Shown here: positions 14,900-21,853 of the stretch, piece after piece
Numbering within the stretch: the stretch's first letter is position 1
Layout of the letters: each line of letters opens with the position of its first letter
Source of the DNA: Eggerthellaceae bacterium
Lineage (GTDB): Bacteria; Actinomycetota; Coriobacteriia; Coriobacteriales; Eggerthellaceae
Direction of reading: 5' to 3'
DNA length: 64,000 bases
Assembly (NCBI GenBank): GCA_022644775.1
Contig: JALCHN010000001.1
Coordinates: 124,001 to 188,000 of the forward strand
Notes under the pieces: model-generated
Told to the model about the DNA's origin: nothing
What the model saw: the letters and a program-made list of their open reading frames with translations, nothing else
Databases searched by the model: none
Made by a program: the position numbers and the translations under genes

Positions 14900-15670
14900 C
14901 TACAGCCCGTATTTCACCTTCACGCGGGCGATTTTCCGTCGCCAGGGCGCGTAGAGGATGAGCAGGAAGGCGACCGTGGCGATGCCATGGGCGATGTCGA
15001 AGGGCAGCGCGGCCGCGTACACGGCAAGGGCCTCGGAAGCGGTCTGCGGATGGAAGAACCCCAGGATGCTCCACAGGTTCAAGATGAAGCCGTAGCCCAA
15101 GCAGGCTGCGAACCCGTAGGCGCACACCCCCGCCGTGCGCTCGAACAGGCGGCTGTGCGCAAGCAGGCCGGCCCCGTAGCCCACCAGGCCCCAGGCGTAC
15201 ATCTGCCAGGGCGTCCAGGGCCCCTGGCCGAAGAAGAAGTTCGATACGAGCGCAGCGAGTGCCCCCACCATGAAGCCGCTCTGCCTGCCGAAGGCGACTC
15301 CCGCCACGATCGCGATCGCCGACACGGGCTTCACGTCGGGGAAGGGCGCGAACAGGATGCGGCCGGCGGCGGCGAGCGCGGCAAGCACCGCGACCGGCAT
15401 TGTTTCGCGCAGTCGCGGGCGGCGATGCTCGTAGACGGCGAAGAAGAGGGCGAGCGCGGCAAGCACTACCACGAGCGTGAGCAGGGCCGTCTGCTCGATC
15501 CCCGCCGCCGCGCACGCCCCCATGGCCGCGGCGGGCGCGATCAGGGCCGCCGCCTCGAGCACGGCGTACGCCCCGCGGCGCGGAACGGGCGCGCATCCCC
15601 TCGCCGGGACGCCCTGCCTCATGGGAGCGCCTCCCGGCGTCGGCGCGTTGCCGCGCGCGCTCCCGCTCAT
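14900..15670 (-). CDS. ECF transporter S component (candidate corrinoid-specific)
   Basis: Hydrophobic; VLAALAAAGRILFAPFPDVKPVSAIAIVAGVAFGRQSGFMVGALAALVSNFFFGQGPWTPWQMYAWGLVGYGAGLL is S-component-like; ATGA overlap with the upstream EcfA gene. Confidence 0.85.
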   Translation of the reverse strand: MSGSARGNAPTPGGAPMRQGVPARGCAPVPRRGAYAVLEAAALIAPAAAMGACAAAGIEQTALLTLVVVLAALALFFAVYEHRRPRLRETMPVAVLAALAAAGRILFAPFPDVKPVSAIAIVAGVAFGRQSGFMVGALAALVSNFFFGQGPWTPWQMYAWGLVGYGAGLLAHSRLFERTAGVCAYGFAACLGYGFILNLWSILGFFHPQTASEALAVYAAALPFDIAHGIATVAFLLILYAPWRRKIARVKVKYGL

Positions 15671-17112
15671 CGCAGGGCTCCGTACAGACGGGCGCGCTCA
15701 TGCGGGCGATAGACGAGGTTTTCCGAAAAGAAGCCGTCGACCGGCTCGGTGCAGGCGTCCTGCCCGTCGAAGAGCATCGTGACCTCATCGGCTACGACGT
15801 AGGCGAAATCGAGGTCGTGGGTGGCCATGACCACGGCGGCCCCGTCGTCGGCCGCCCGCCGCACAAGGCGCGCGAGCTGGGCGGCGGCGCGCGGGTCGAG
15901 CCCCTTCGAGGGCTCGTCGAGCAAGAACAGGCGCGGGCGCAGCAAGGAGAGCTTGGCGAAGGCGAGCAGCTGCTGCTGGCCGCCCGACAGATCGTAGGGG
16001 TGGCGACCGGCCGCCGCCGCCAGGCCGAACCGCTCGAGCGCGGCCGTCTCGTCTTCGGCGGTATAGCAGCCCCGGTCGCGCCATTCGGCCAGCTCTTCGA
16101 CCACCGAATCGCACACGAAGAGCGTCTTGGGATCCTGGGGCAGATAGGCGCACGTCCCGCGATCGGCGCGCGACACGCTCCCCCGCTGGGTGCGCACCGC
16201 GCCCGCCACGACCTTGAGCAGGGTCGACTTGCCGCAGCCGTTGCCGCCCACCACCGCATGCACGGCGCCGGCGCGCGCTGAAAAATCGAGCCCGCGCAAC
16301 ACCCAGGCGCCGTCTCGCTCGTAGCGCGTCCACACGTCGCGCGCCCGCGCCGCTTCCGCACCGGGCTGTCGCTCTGCGCGCAGCAGGCCGCAGGCCGTCG
16401 TCTGCGGACGGGGCGCCAGCGGCTCCAGGGGCGACAGGGCGACCGTCTGCGTGGCCCAGGGCTCGGCTTCTTCGGGCATATGGGTCGCCATGATCACGGT
16501 CACGCCGAGCTCGCGGTTCACGCGGCCGAGCATGTGCAGGAAGATCCCGCGCGCGTAAGGGTCGAGCTGGGCGGTGGGCTCGTCGAGCAGGATGAGGCGA
16601 GGGCGCAGGGCGAGCACGCCCGCCAGGTTCACGAGCTGCTGCTGACCGCCCGAAATCTCTTCGGTCCGCTTCCGCACCCAAGGCTCGATGCCCAAGAAGT
16701 GGGCCGCTTCGGCCACGCGCCGCCGCATCGTGTCGGGCGCCGTCCCCAGGTTTTCCAGCCCGAAGGCGATTTCGTGCCACACCGTGTCGCAGACGATCTG
16801 CGCGCCGGGGTCTTGTCCCACGAAGCCCACCTGCCGGGCCGATTCCTTCGCCGAAAGGCCCGCCATGCGCTCGCCTGCGCGCACGAGGGGCGCACCCGCC
16901 ACCTGCAGGCTTCCGCCGAAGGCGCCCACCGGCGTGAGCTCGGGCTTCATCGCGCGCAGCAGCGTGGTCTTGCCCGACCCCGTGGCCCCCACGAGCAGGC
17001 AGAAGGCGCCCTCTTCCACCGAAAAGGACACGGGCGCGAGCGCTTCGCCTGACTGCCGGCCCTCTTCGACCGCATAGGAAAACGACAGCTCGTCTACTTC
17101 GACAATCGCCAT
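15667..17112 (-). CDS. Energy-coupling factor ATPase, two fused ABC domains
   Basis: Two Walker A motifs (GATGSGKTTLL, GGNGCGKSTLL), two signature/Walker B sets (SGGQQQLVNLAGVLALRPRLILLDEPTAQLD; SGGQQQLLAFAKLSLLRPRLFLLDEPSKGLD). Confidence 0.93.
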   Translation of the reverse strand: MAIVEVDELSFSYAVEEGRQSGEALAPVSFSVEEGAFCLLVGATGSGKTTLLRAMKPELTPVGAFGGSLQVAGAPLVRAGERMAGLSAKESARQVGFVGQDPGAQIVCDTVWHEIAFGLENLGTAPDTMRRRVAEAAHFLGIEPWVRKRTEEISGGQQQLVNLAGVLALRPRLILLDEPTAQLDPYARGIFLHMLGRVNRELGVTVIMATHMPEEAEPWATQTVALSPLEPLAPRPQTTACGLLRAERQPGAEAARARDVWTRYERDGAWVLRGLDFSARAGAVHAVVGGNGCGKSTLLKVVAGAVRTQRGSVSRADRGTCAYLPQDPKTLFVCDSVVEELAEWRDRGCYTAEDETAALERFGLAAAAGRHPYDLSGGQQQLLAFAKLSLLRPRLFLLDEPSKGLDPRAAAQLARLVRRAADDGAAVVMATHDLDFAYVVADEVTMLFDGQDACTEPVDGFFSENLVYRPHERARLYGALR

Positions 17113-17972
17113 TGGGCGCTCTCCTTCGCAGACAGGATCACCGGCACCGCCATGAGCAGGACGTAGGGCGCGTACCCCCACCACACGACCAGGCGGCTGG
17201 CCGTGGGATAGAACGAATACTGGCTGCAGGCGACGGCAGCGAGCAGGCCGCTTGCCGTCACGAGCGCGCCGACGAGGACGAGCGCCGCCCCGTCGCGCAG
17301 GCGAAAGCGCACGCGTCGGTAGAGGGTGCGCGGAAGCCCGCATTCGTACCCGCGGGCGCGCATGGCGTCGCTGCGGACGATGCCGTCTTCCATCCCCCAC
17401 CCCATGAGCACCGACGCGATGCGGACGTTCAGGCGCAGGCGGTCGCGTTTGGATTGGGAAGCCGGCGGAAAGGCCGCGTCCTGGACGGCCCGCACGCTGC
17501 GGCCCCGCCGGACGAACTGGCGGGTGAGCCGCATGACCTGTGTCACGATGAGCGCCACCGTGGGCGCGCGACGGCCGAAGACCGCGAGCAGGGCCTCGCC
17601 GTCGAGGCAGCCCGACCACACCGAAAACCACATGAGCATGGCCGCGAACATGCCGCCCGCCACCGCCCCGTAGCCTAAGGCCTCGGCATAGAAGACGCGC
17701 TCGCCGATGCGGAAGAGCTCGGTCGAACCTTGGGCCACGAAGAGAAGGTTGCCCGCGGCGACCACGGCCGCGAAGACGAGCGCCCAGCCCAAGGTGCCGA
17801 AGGCCCGCGCCGGCCCGCGCACAAGGCAGGCCGCCTCCGCGGCGCCCAGAAGTGACAGGGCCACATAGACCGGGTGCACGGCCGCCATCGAGAAGACGAT
17901 GACGGCCGACAGGTAGACCACGGGCACGACCGGATGGAAGGCCTCGAAGGGGTTGGCGCGAACGGGCTCCAC
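17094..17972 (-). CDS. Energy-coupling factor transporter transmembrane protein EcfT
   Basis: CbiQ-like: ...RLRLNVRIASVLMGWGMEDGIVRSDAMRARGYECGLPRTLYRRVRF (A-R-G coupling motif), multiple TM segments. Confidence 0.88.
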   Translation of the reverse strand: MEPVRANPFEAFHPVVPVVYLSAVIVFSMAAVHPVYVALSLLGAAEAACLVRGPARAFGTLGWALVFAAVVAAGNLLFVAQGSTELFRIGERVFYAEALGYGAVAGGMFAAMLMWFSVWSGCLDGEALLAVFGRRAPTVALIVTQVMRLTRQFVRRGRSVRAVQDAAFPPASQSKRDRLRLNVRIASVLMGWGMEDGIVRSDAMRARGYECGLPRTLYRRVRFRLRDGAALVLVGALVTASGLLAAVACSQYSFYPTASRLVVWWGYAPYVLLMAVPVILSAKESAQWRLSK

Positions 17973-18824
17973 TTAGGAAACGTCTCCCTTGGTGACCGTG
18001 TAGACCCACACGATCGACTCGCCGCCTGCAAGCTTGTACTTGCCGAACGCGTAGTTGGGATAGACGCCGTCGACCTTGTACATCCACCCGCTGCCGGACC
18101 CGCAGGCCTTTTCGGCAAGGCCGTTGATCGAGCTCACGTAGGTGGAATTGCCCCCGACCGCGACGCCGGTGGCCTTGAGGGCGTCGTAGACCGAAGCGCC
18201 CGCGTTCACCGCGACCTGCTTGGATCCCATCGACGAGGGATAGGCGGCGTTGACCTTGTGGGCGTTGGATGCGTCGATCGTCACCGTGACGGTGATGGTC
18301 GAGGCGGCCGGCGCCGTTTGCTGCTGCTTGGCGGAACCGGATGCGGAAGGCGCCTGCGCGCTGGCAGAGCCGCCGGTCGAGGCGGACGTCGAAGAGCCCG
18401 AAGCGGACGGGGCGGCTGCGGAACCCGATGCCGCGGAGCCGGAGCCCCCCTGCGAGCTAGCGTCGCCGGCGCCGTTGCCGGTCGCACCGGACGCGTCGGT
18501 CGCGCCTGCGTCGCTCGCAACAGGGACTTCGGTTGCGGCATCGGCTTCGGGTGCCGCTCCATCGCCATCGCCTTCGGCCGCCTGGTCGCCTTCGGCTGCG
18601 GCATCGTCGGAACCCGCCGAGGCGTCGTCGGCGGCTTCTCCCGAATCGGCGGCGTCGCCATCGGTGCCCTCGTCCGCGGCAACCGTCTGGAAGGCGTCGC
18701 CGTCCCAGGGCATCGTGCAGCCGGCGAAGGGCGCGACGAAGAGCACGGCGGCAAGGAGGGCGGCGAAGATCGCCGCCCCCACGCCCAGCCGTTTGCGCGC
18801 CGTGTCGTTCAAAGGTGCCTGCAT
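17973..18824 (-). CDS. DUF4430 (transcobalamin C-terminal-like) membrane-tethered or lipoprotein with long low-complexity linker
   Basis: N-terminal hydrophobic segment ending LFVAPFAGC; Ser/Ala/Gly/Asp-rich stalk; C-terminal VTVTIDASNAHKVNAAYPSSMGSKQVAVNAGASVYDALKATGV...GWMYKVDGVYPNYAFGKYKLAGGESIVWVYT typical of DUF4430. Confidence 0.87.
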   Translation of the reverse strand: MQAPLNDTARKRLGVGAAIFAALLAAVLFVAPFAGCTMPWDGDAFQTVAADEGTDGDAADSGEAADDASAGSDDAAAEGDQAAEGDGDGAAPEADAATEVPVASDAGATDASGATGNGAGDASSQGGSGSAASGSAAAPSASGSSTSASTGGSASAQAPSASGSAKQQQTAPAASTITVTVTIDASNAHKVNAAYPSSMGSKQVAVNAGASVYDALKATGVAVGGNSTYVSSINGLAEKACGSGSGWMYKVDGVYPNYAFGKYKLAGGESIVWVYTVTKGDVS

Positions 18825-18837
18825 GAACCTGCCGCCC

Positions 18838-21045
18838 CTACTCCTTGCGCACCTTCGCGCGGGCTACGCCGGCCGCAGCGCCGGCGGCAAGCAGCACGAC
18901 CACGAGCGCCGCCGGGAAGGCGTCGCCGGTCTGCGGCATCGCGGTGGCGCTGCCGGCAGTAGCCGCAGCATCGCCCCACTGCGCGTAGAGCGTCACGTCC
19001 TCATCGGGAACCGTGTAGGTTGCCCCCGCTTCGTAGAGCGTACCCGTGTGGTTTTCCGCCGTGTTCCATCCCTCGAATTGGGCGTCCGAGCGGTCCACCA
19101 GCTGGCCGGGAAGCTCGATGGTCGACCCCGGCGCAGCCGTCACCGTCGTCGACTGGTTGTCATCGGCGGTATGGGGATCGCCCGCATCGATGAAGGTGAT
19201 CGTCACGTCGCCGTCCTGAGGATTCACCGTCGCCCCCGTCGGGCCGAAGACGAGCACGTTGGCCGTCTTGCCGTCCTTGTAGGCGGCAAGGGCGAGCATC
19301 GCGTCGGAATCGAGCATCTGGGAATCCCAGTTCGACTCGTAGCCCGTCAGATCGGACTTCGCCTGGCTGAGCAGGTAGTACATCGGCGTCTTGCCCGACG
19401 CGGCGCTTGCCGTGTCGGCCCCGTTCACGTTGTATCCCAGCGCGTCGAGCGCCGCGCATATCTCGGCCGTGGCGTCCGCGTTGCTCGTCTTGTCCCCATA
19501 GCTGTAGCTGAAGCCGCCGTCATCGTTCTGCATGCTCAGAATGGTGGCCTTCGCCTTGTCGATGAAGTCAGCAACGTTCTTGTTGGCGTCCTTGTACGGA
19601 AGAAGGGCAAGCACCGCCTGGGCGGTCGTCTGCGAATCGGGATAGCCGGTATAGCCGACCAGGCCCGTCGTCGCATCGGCGGAATCGATGATCGCGTCGA
19701 TGATCTTTTCGGGCGTCAGAGCCGCATCCGTCTGCGTTGTGTATCCCTGGGCACTGTAGACGGGCAGGATGCACACGTAATCGGTGGCGGTAAGCGATGC
19801 CGCTTCTTCGGCTTCTTCCATTTCCTTCACCAGATTGCGCGTGGTGCCGTCGATATCGACCTGCGTGCAATCCACGCCTGCAGCGGTGAGCATGGTGATG
19901 TACTTCGCCATGGTGCCTGCGGCAATCTTGTCGCTCTGGGCGATCGAGGCGACGACCTCGTTCTTCGCGACATCGGAGGTGCGGCCCATGGCGCGCAGGG
20001 CGATGGCCGCGTTGTAGCGGTTGTTCGCCATCTGGTCGCCTTCGAGCGCGGCCCCGCTGCCGCCTTCGCGATAGGTGTTTGCCAGATTATCGAGAAGCGC
20101 GGTGAGCTTGCCCTCGTCGGCCGGCGTCAGCGTGGGCGTGGAAGGCGTGTCGGGCTTCGACGGTTCTGCGGGCGTTTCCGGCGTTGCGGGCGTGTAGCCG
20201 GCGAGCGGGTCGCTCACCTGCGGAACGACCGAGGTCACCTTGTCGGGAATGCTGTCCGAATACGAGAACAGATAGGGATTCGCCATCGAGTTCGTGTAGA
20301 CGTACTGGTAATGGCCGCCCTTGGTGAGCTTGGAGGCGAGCTGCGCAGAAGCCCAGTTGGCGCTCGACCCGTTGAAGATCGTCATCCAGTAGCCGCCGGT
20401 GGTCGCATCGTAGCCCTTGCCCTCGAACGTGGGCGAGCCGTAGCTGTCCCCGTTTTCCAAGCCGGCCTTCTTGATCATGTCGGCAACCGAATCGTCCGTG
20501 GTCAGACCCGAAACCGTATCGTTGTAGACCACCTTCGAGCCGTTCAGCTCGTCCACCACAGTAAGCTGGACGGGAGCCGATGTATCGTCGTAGGAGAACT
20601 CCCCCGTGCTCGAATAGATGTACTGATAGTGGCCGCCGTCCGTAAGCGTCGCCGACAGCTGCGCCTTGGCGTAATTGTCGGACGAACCGTCGAACTCGGT
20701 CACCCAGTACGCGCCGGTAGAAGCATCGTAGCCCTTGCCCTCGAACGCGGGCGAGCCGTAGCTCTCATCGTAGTCGATGCCGGCTTTCTTCAGCATGTCG
20801 GCAACGGTGCTGCTCGACGTGAGGCCGTCGACCGTGCCGTTGTAGACCGTCTTGCCCACCACGTTGCCCGCATCGTCGGTCGCGGTGGTGTCGACGATCG
20901 TGAGCGCGACCTTCACGCTCGAAACGGCGTCGTCGGCCTCCGCCGCCGGCTGCGGCATCGCCGGCCATGCGAGCACGACGAGCAGCACCGCCGCCAGCGC
21001 GCAGCTGGCGCTCTTGTTCCATAGTTGTCTAAAAGAATGGGTCAT
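18838..21045 (-). CDS. Cell-wall-anchored transcobalamin/intrinsic-factor-like protein: two DUF4430-like modules, alpha/alpha-toroid (prenyltransferase-like repeat) domain, InlB-B/Flg_new-type repeat, LPXTG-like anchor
   Basis: Signal peptide SCALAAVLLVVLAWPAMPQPAAEA; two related modules (YNGTVDGLTSSSTVADMLKKAGIDYDESYGSPAFEGKGYDASTGAYWVTEFDGSS / YNDTVSGLTTDDSVADMIKKAGLENGDSYGSPTFEGKGYDATTGGYWMTIFNGSS); NDDGGFSY...; AQFEGWNTAENHTGTLYEAGATYTVPDEDVTLYAQW; C-terminal MPQTGD + hydrophobic + RAKVRKE. Confidence 0.85.
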   Translation of the reverse strand: MTHSFRQLWNKSASCALAAVLLVVLAWPAMPQPAAEADDAVSSVKVALTIVDTTATDDAGNVVGKTVYNGTVDGLTSSSTVADMLKKAGIDYDESYGSPAFEGKGYDASTGAYWVTEFDGSSDNYAKAQLSATLTDGGHYQYIYSSTGEFSYDDTSAPVQLTVVDELNGSKVVYNDTVSGLTTDDSVADMIKKAGLENGDSYGSPTFEGKGYDATTGGYWMTIFNGSSANWASAQLASKLTKGGHYQYVYTNSMANPYLFSYSDSIPDKVTSVVPQVSDPLAGYTPATPETPAEPSKPDTPSTPTLTPADEGKLTALLDNLANTYREGGSGAALEGDQMANNRYNAAIALRAMGRTSDVAKNEVVASIAQSDKIAAGTMAKYITMLTAAGVDCTQVDIDGTTRNLVKEMEEAEEAASLTATDYVCILPVYSAQGYTTQTDAALTPEKIIDAIIDSADATTGLVGYTGYPDSQTTAQAVLALLPYKDANKNVADFIDKAKATILSMQNDDGGFSYSYGDKTSNADATAEICAALDALGYNVNGADTASAASGKTPMYYLLSQAKSDLTGYESNWDSQMLDSDAMLALAAYKDGKTANVLVFGPTGATVNPQDGDVTITFIDAGDPHTADDNQSTTVTAAPGSTIELPGQLVDRSDAQFEGWNTAENHTGTLYEAGATYTVPDEDVTLYAQWGDAAATAGSATAMPQTGDAFPAALVVVLLAAGAAAGVARAKVRKE

Positions 21046-21159
21046 CTGCCGTCCTTCCCCCAAATCGCGCGTTTCCCGCGCATCCAGCCAGAAGAAAGGA
21101 CAGCGCCGGCCACGTGGCCGAACGTTACGCGAAGCCGCCTTCAGGCGGGTAGCTGGGCG

Positions 21160-21290
21160 ATGCGACGCCGCGCAGCTGGCACGCTTCTCGGGAAGTGTTC
21201 TGACTGACGGGACCGTATGGCCCCGATCACAGTGGCGGCACCGCGGGGGATTCTCACCCGGATTTCCTTGCACCGAGACGTCTTCTTCTG
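21160..21290 (-). promoter_or_regulatory. Cobalamin riboswitch
   Basis: Minus strand GGTGCAAGGAAATCCGGGTGAGAATCCCCCGCGGTGCCGCCACTGTGATCGGGG...GTCAGTCAGAACACTTCCCGAGAAGC matches conserved B12-box blocks; lies in the 5' leader of the 18838-21045 gene; ends approximate. Confidence 0.92.
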
Positions 21291-21334
21291 CGCCCGCCAT
21301 TGTAGCATGAGGGCTTTTCCGCCGCGCAAGCGCA

Positions 21335-21454: not shown

Positions 21455-21853
21455 CTAGTCCGCATAGACTTCTTTTTCCACGACAAGCTCGTTTTTGATC
21501 GTGCCGACGAGCTTCTGGAGCGCGTCGATGCAGCGCGGGCGGATGTCGCCGCCGATGAGCACGTACATAAGCGAATCGCCCACTTCGCAGCGCCCCTCGT
21601 TGAGCCACACGCGCACGTAGTAGACGCCGTCCCAGCTAAGGGCCTCGTTCACCGCCTTCTGCAGGCCTTCGGCGTCATAGGAGAAATCCACGGCGACCAC
21701 GTTGCCCAAGCCCTGCACGCCCTCGCGCACCTGGCGCTTCGGCGTCGCGCGCACGACGCCGTTGTGGGTGAGGAACATCCCGCATTGGTCGGCATGCTCG
21801 CTCGCTTTCGCCTCGCGCAGCCATTCGTCCATCGACGGTTCCGGTTTTCCCAT
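21455..21853 (-). CDS. MoaE-like molybdopterin synthase catalytic subunit family protein
   Basis: MGKPEPSMDEWLREAKASEHADQCGMFLTHNGVVRATPK...YYVRVWLNEGRCEVGDSLMYVLIGGDIRPRCIDALQKLVGTIKNE. Confidence 0.75.
   Translation of the reverse strand: MGKPEPSMDEWLREAKASEHADQCGMFLTHNGVVRATPKRQVREGVQGLGNVVAVDFSYDAEGLQKAVNEALSWDGVYYVRVWLNEGRCEVGDSLMYVLIGGDIRPRCIDALQKLVGTIKNELVVEKEVYAD

Follow-up and report, generated by a model that had tools for sequence, protein, structure and literature searches.

A putative corrinoid scavenging operon with a divergent cobalamin riboswitch, predicted surface capture proteins and an ECF importer in an Eggerthellaceae genome

Introduction

Mammals carry vitamin B12 on transcobalamin, intrinsic factor and haptocorrin, soluble proteins that are taken up by receptors and in which an alpha/alpha toroid is followed by a DUF4430-type beta domain. 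In Bacteroides the surface lipoproteins BtuG and BtuH capture B12 under riboswitch control (PMC10404256, PMC13398666) as part of an outer-membrane TonB system of Gram-negatives, BtuG2 being a beta-propeller (PMC10404256). Lactobacillus delbrueckii uses ECF-CbrT (6FNP), an energy-coupling factor (ECF) importer for B12 (PMC5997447) in which the S component CbrT and seven others depend on a common ECF module. Here we analyze an operon that resembles each of these systems in part. It lies in a window, i.e. the whole stretch of DNA analyzed, of 64,000 nucleotides from an Eggerthellaceae bacterium (GCA_022644775.1, contig JALCHN010000001.1, positions 124,001 to 188,000), and consists of five tightly packed minus-strand genes (14900–21045) downstream of a cobalamin riboswitch (21147–21293). 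The order of transcription is riboswitch, gene 1 (exported toroid protein), gene 2 (tethered DUF4430 protein), gene 3 (EcfT-like), gene 4 (fused EcfA-EcfA’) and gene 5 (S component). We read it as a corrinoid (vitamin B12-type) scavenging operon with surface capture and dedicated ECF import, and give this reading a probability of about 85%.

The likeness to ECF-CbrT is that of one ECF S component to another: CbrT is the best relative of gene 5 in the PDB, yet it is very distant from the clade of the window in a tree of S components. Unlike CbrT, the operon comes with its own EcfT and fused EcfAA’. The paper on ECF-CbrT (PMC5997447) describes neither exported binding proteins nor a riboswitch, whereas the operon has both, the exported proteins being predicted. 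The mammalian carriers share the toroid and the DUF4430-type domain with gene 1 and provide the top Foldseek matches of its model; in contrast to these soluble carriers the gene 1 product is predicted to be wall-anchored, its repeats precede the toroid, and it stays below PF01122. With Bacteroides the operon has riboswitch control and, as predicted, surface B12 capture in common; its importer is of the ECF type. Some Coriobacteriia have a beta-propeller in the slot of gene 1, which is a parallel to BtuG2 only. Five-gene modules of lactobacilli contain a homologous toroid protein, a DUF4430 protein, EcfT, EcfAA’ and S; no cobalamin riboswitch was found at them, and their surface proteins lack the DUF4430-like repeats of gene 1. 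In kind we place the operon among the known ECF tetrapyrrole importers, as a variant that is controlled by a riboswitch and bears a transcobalamin-like protein. In our literature search we found no paper linking bacterial DUF4430 proteins to B12 uptake and no description of this kind of operon.

Results

The host is a coriobacterial draft genome of 1.96 Mb with a completeness of 95%, and its named relatives include Slackia, Gordonibacter and Adlercreutzia. An earlier note on this DNA had listed the gene order given above together with four gene junctions, and the gene coordinates confirm all of this: 13 nt separate genes 1 and 2, genes 2 and 3 adjoin (0 nt), genes 3 and 4 overlap by 19 nt, given a start of EcfAA’ at ATG 17112, and genes 4 and 5 overlap in an ATGA at 15667–15670.

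The same note had placed a cobalamin riboswitch in the operon leader and named a score of RF00174 above threshold as a check. Taken literally this check failed: RF00174 has no match at E≤1e-3 in the whole genome, and at gathering thresholds Rfam does not report the element. When the settings are relaxed, the whole of the RF01482 model aligns, with 31.3 bits against a cut-off of 50 (E 0.0012 for 1 kb), which characterizes the aptamer at 21147–21293 (minus strand) as RF01482-like, of the adenosylcobalamin (AdoCbl) type and below the Rfam cut-off. Riboswitch motifs are located at 21199–21268 on the minus strand, and a 30-nt core motif has one match in the window versus 0.00 expected by shuffling. 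We built a covariance model from the leaders of five relatives, leaving out the window and its same-genus sister; an alignment of 10 distant riboswitches proved too ragged and was not included. With this held-out model the window element scores 96.3 bits (E 8e-25 in 538 kb) and that of the sister 102.5 bits. In the host genome the window element is the only strong match. The Rfam and RF00174 results by themselves speak against a riboswitch; we retained it because the held-out model matches at 96 bits.

Several relatives have leaders of this operon that exceed the Rfam cut-offs, so that the note’s riboswitch is borne out from this side as well. We found three families preceding the operon: RF01482 in locus L044 (55.5 bits), RF01689 in L032, L033, L037, L040 (twice) and L046, and RF00174 in L058, L061 and L062. 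In Clostridia including Desulfosporosinus RF00174 scores 101–113 bits before the operon, in Desulfosporosinus in tandem. The window element does not reach a family gathering cut-off of Rfam clan CL00101; by its conserved core and its homology to accepted members at the same operon position it belongs to this clan. Judged by its sequence it is a true, divergent cobalamin riboswitch. When 111 loci were scanned with a strict core, i.e. a text pattern for two riboswitch classes, it was present upstream of the operon and on the operon strand in 38, with no occurrence elsewhere in these loci and none antisense; some of the other loci stop short of the leader. As a separate observation, paired cobalamin riboswitches stand in tandem before the operon at L040 (15102–15455, minus), L042 (1711–2012), L122 (118–830) and L131 (269–983).

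Between the aptamer and gene 1 a hairpin is predicted (21048–21104, minus strand) in which the Shine-Dalgarno sequence of gene 1, GGGGGAAGG, is buried. RNA folding of 21030–21146 places it inside a 14-bp outer stem within the 57 nt that precede the start codon, and the same stem is kept in the fold of the sister genome. As a possible expression platform the predicted hairpin is merely suggestive, because the fold energy of the leader is unremarkable for its GC content (z −0.8). The leader shows no conspicuous terminator or consensus promoter.

Genes 3 to 5 encode an ECF importer and bring together its EcfT, its two ATPase domains and its S component. Gene 4 (15667–17112, minus), the fused EcfA-EcfA’ ATPase, contains two ABC_tran stretches (9.8e-48) and matches ECF ATPase/cbiO models. 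Gene 3 (17094–17972, minus; 292 aa) is assigned as the EcfT-like transmembrane coupling protein by its position, its conserved order with EcfAA’ and S, and its orthologues; PF02361 (CbiQ/EcfT) is matched by 3 of 25 orthologues and not by gene 3 of the window. The module looks dedicated, as the note had proposed, because the operon has an EcfT of its own and three further EcfT genes are located elsewhere in the genome. Gene 5 (14900–15670, minus; 256 aa) has 6fnp_A, chain A of the ECF-CbrT structure, as its sole S-component match in the PDB (9.1e-9). A profile search likewise puts 6fnp_A (6.9e-17) far ahead of the next S component (0.007) and of RibU (0.19), so gene 5 is closer to CbrT than to other S components. 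Of the note’s dedicated corrinoid transporter the kinship of the S component with CbrT stands; the S family as such is not specific for B12, as its lactobacillus branch illustrates.

Gene 1 (18838–21045, minus) encodes an exported transcobalamin-like protein of 735 aa that is predicted to be wall-anchored. Its N-terminus is a signal-like stretch, and at its C-terminal end (18841–18939) a sortase-like motif, MPQTG at residue 703, is followed by a hydrophobic stretch and a basic tail, the parts expected of a sortase anchor. The Pfam anchor model does not report the window’s protein. A position at the cell surface is likely from the sequences of its counterparts, because these end in LPXTG-like motifs (MPQTG, LPKTG, VPQTG and VPNTG in the corresponding place, also MPATG) or else carry SLH, cell-wall-binding (CWB2) or dockerin domains. 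Behind the signal-like stretch the protein has two DUF4430-like repeats, repeat 1 (residues 46–147; 20605–20910) and repeat 2 (residues 159–253; 20287–20571). An iterated profile search from repeat 2 arrives at DUF4430 domains that are beyond doubt and lie in relatives’ operons; when profiles are compared directly, the repeats match DUF4430 weakly (E 0.0036, probability 9%), yet in register. The alpha/alpha toroid follows (residues 313–590; 19276–20109), supported by AlphaFold, Foldseek and matches to squalene-hopene cyclase profiles, and then a Flg_new (Listeria-Bacteroides repeat) beta domain (18979–19203; PF09479 4.6e-8).

AlphaFold models the toroid domain alone with a predicted local distance difference test score (pLDDT) of 89.7 and a predicted template modelling score (pTM) of 0.90, and in the full-length model the region has 12 main helices. 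In Foldseek each of the best 8 PDB matches of the full-length model is either transcobalamin or haptocorrin (E 1.9e-6 to 2.2e-5), and intrinsic factor comes lower among the matches; as root mean square deviations of about 17 Å show, the domains are not placed relative to each other as in these structures. Toroid and beta domain thus occur in one chain as in the mammalian carriers, in a different order. The sequence of gene 1 has no match in the PDB, and two of six orthologues match PF01122 (Cobalamin_bind) weakly (E 0.0011). The catalytic DxDD motif (D.DD) of terpene cyclases, a rival identity for the toroid, is absent from gene 1. What stands of the anchored transcobalamin-like protein proposed before is its toroid/DUF4430-like build and its nearest full-length structures; the toroid taken alone is not diagnostic.

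Gene 2 (17973–18824, minus; 283 aa) combines an N-terminal hydrophobic anchor with a C-terminal DUF4430 domain (17997–18200; PF14478 7.8e-16), the only one detectable with Pfam in the genome. It is by this domain that the operon shares the DUF4430 feature of the transcobalamin/intrinsic factor family, and the second tethered protein of the earlier note is thereby upheld. A clear lipobox is present in 41 of 91 counterparts, and the cysteine of the window’s protein sits in an imperfect box.

Relatives’ contigs were scanned with the S component as query, the toroid alignment being unusable for that scan. A search of 199 genomes from the order recovered the S component in 159. The module DUF4430-EcfT-EcfAA’-S recurs through Coriobacteriia and Clostridia, mostly with a large surface protein first. 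Many members lack gene 1 or have something else in its place; the DUF4430 protein is kept in most operons. Relatives of gene 1 also contain MucBP, Big_3, CBM_X2 or aBig_2 domains. In the gene 1 slot of many members, among them L033, L037, L038, L046, L055 and L057, a beta-propeller (PQQ_2 / Beta-prop_ACSF4) with DUF4430 domains replaces the toroid. In L048, L049, L050 and L051 EcfAA’ and S share one long open frame (910–1151 aa), possibly a natural fusion.

The reading of the operon as a B12 uptake system fits the host genome, which encodes a MetH whose domains are those for homocysteine, pterin and B12, and in which we found no second B12 importer. A MetE-C-like gene is present as well. A FecCD/BtuC-type permease is represented only by a broken 70-residue fragment with a stop, no BtuCD was found, and there is no credible CobS, a CobS match having been rejected since it sits in a ComEC-like gene. 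These absences are provisional because of the completeness of 95%. Elsewhere in the genome (C3, ~69–73.5 kb; L161 9062–13424) a metF-like gene, a short MetH-activation-like frame and metH are adjacent. Upstream of the operon, at 21455–21853 on the minus strand, a MoaE-like protein of 132 aa (PF02391 1.6e-6) adjoins a C1-type peptidase.

Discussion

Several observations weigh against a B12 capture and import operon. Foldseek with the toroid alone returned GH105 enzymes, drimenyl diphosphate synthase/terpene cyclases and transcobalamin equally (TM ~0.6 each); since these match alike, the modelled toroid does not by itself discriminate transcobalamin from enzyme folds. In Pfam, gene 1 of the window reaches neither PF14478 nor PF01122, the alpha-domain family of transcobalamin and intrinsic factor. 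DUF4430 is also present in Lactococcus lactis; the domain is not specific for B12, and its use as a B12 marker in the earlier note went too far. Neither a PduO- nor a BtuR-type adenosyltransferase was found in the genome, provisionally at the given completeness. An AdoCbl-type riboswitch is odd in such a genome, and which cobalamin it senses is ambiguous for this reason. Many Collinsella/Olsenella operons do not show the strict riboswitch core, an absence that is real at that strictness.

The lactobacilli weigh in the same direction. On a plasmid of Latilactobacillus curvatus (CP117684.1; L165 3889–9531) there is a homologous five-gene module of an LPXTG toroid protein (match at 3.6e-44), a DUF4430 protein, EcfT, EcfAA’ and an S component that has 38% identity with that of the window; we take it to be kin of L. 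sakei lsa1836–1840. Verplaetse and colleagues are said to have described, in 2020, a five-gene layout for the L. sakei heme ECF system. The L. plantarum plasmid pMF1298-5 (NZ_CP013155.2; L166 1217–6324) has the same module, there named ‘CbrTUV’, with a toroid surface protein matching at 2.7e-29. Among the lactobacilli S components are 38–39% identical to the window’s, the surface proteins are shorter and without DUF4430-like repeats, and no cobalamin riboswitch was recognised at the modules. The L. plantarum copy, CbrTUV, lies together with B12 genes (PMC6722938), and the ECF system of L. sakei is reported to be heme-specific (cited in PMC7299338). Since lactobacilli share the module and the one of L. 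sakei is reported for heme, the ligand cannot be told from DUF4430, from the toroid or from the S family taken singly. Our assignment of the ligand in the window depends chiefly on the riboswitch, and then on MetH without another importer found.

An import of heme or of tetrapyrroles in general, with cobalamin acting only in regulation, would agree with the place of the L. curvatus module in the lineage of the L. sakei system that is reported as heme-specific (cited in PMC7299338), and with the 38% identity of the S components. We nevertheless consider it very improbable. The cobalamin riboswitch is conserved over Coriobacteriia and Clostridia, and in the S-component tree a supported branch (98/100) separates all riboswitch-linked members from the lactobacillus ones. 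Furthermore no competition of hemin with B12 was seen in ECF-CbrT (PMC5997447), and the host has MetH and no other importer that we could find. Still further from the evidence is an importer of riboflavin or another vitamin, as the Pfam name ECF-ribofla_trS would imply: PF07155 does match the S component at 3.4e-11, but the NCBIfam riboflavin model reaches 22.9 of 99 bits, far below its cut-off, RibU lies at E 0.19 in the profile search against 7e-17 for CbrT, and an FMN (flavin mononucleotide) riboswitch is absent from the operon. We regard it as hardly conceivable. Another explanation keeps the corrinoid importer and changes the role of the exported proteins, which would bind other surfaces or carrier proteins, in adhesion or in stripping B12 from host or microbial binders, and capture of the vitamin would be left to the S component alone. 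ECF-CbrT operates with no extracellular binding protein (PMC5997447), gene 1 (Flg_new) and its relatives (MucBP, Big_3, CBM_X2, aBig_2) have adhesion-like extras, and the many operons with gene 1 missing or replaced point the same way. Against this stand the full-length fold of gene 1, which is nearest to B12 carriers, the retention of the DUF4430 protein in most operons, and the riboswitch immediately upstream of gene 1; we think such a division of roles unlikely.

Riboswitch-controlled corrinoid import remains our preferred reading. With respect to regulation it is near certain, and with respect to the ligand very likely. Transcobalamin-like capture at the wall, as modelled, is the best-supported reading of the anatomy. 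From what was computed, namely the riboswitch, the gene layout, the folds, the relationship to CbrT, MetH and the failure to find another B12 importer, we infer ligand binding by the products of genes 1 and 2, a hand-over of the corrinoid and the direction of the switch as follows. At low intracellular cobalamin the riboswitch would be unbound and the operon expressed; binding of the ligand would leave the Shine-Dalgarno sequence of gene 1 in its predicted hairpin and shut off translation of gene 1. The gene 1 product would be exported and, as predicted, anchored to the wall by sortase. In transcobalamin the toroid and DUF4430 are two folds that clamp B12, and the toroid and DUF4430-like domains of gene 1 may capture corrinoid outside the cell in a comparable manner. 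Gene 2 would pass the corrinoid on or complete the clamp at the membrane, and the S component would take it up, with EcfT and EcfAA’ driving import for use by MetH.

In a wider and tentative view, which we hold to be possible and rather doubtful, the five-gene module would be an ancient bacterial tetrapyrrole-capture family, for corrinoid in riboswitch-linked members and heme in some lactobacilli. Its wall-anchored transcobalamin-type or beta-propeller proteins would then be a Gram-positive counterpart of BtuG, and relatives of them ancestral to animal transcobalamin and intrinsic factor.

How B12 is captured outside the membrane is poorly known in Gram-positive gut bacteria, the answer given by BtuG/BtuH covering Bacteroides only. 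The operon offers two exported candidates that recur in a large gut-associated group and are tied to a B12 sensor. It also connects B12 capture in bacteria with the two folds that human B12 carriers combine, and together with the lactobacillus modules it may serve as a natural experiment in which one importer family is apparently tuned to B12 or to heme.

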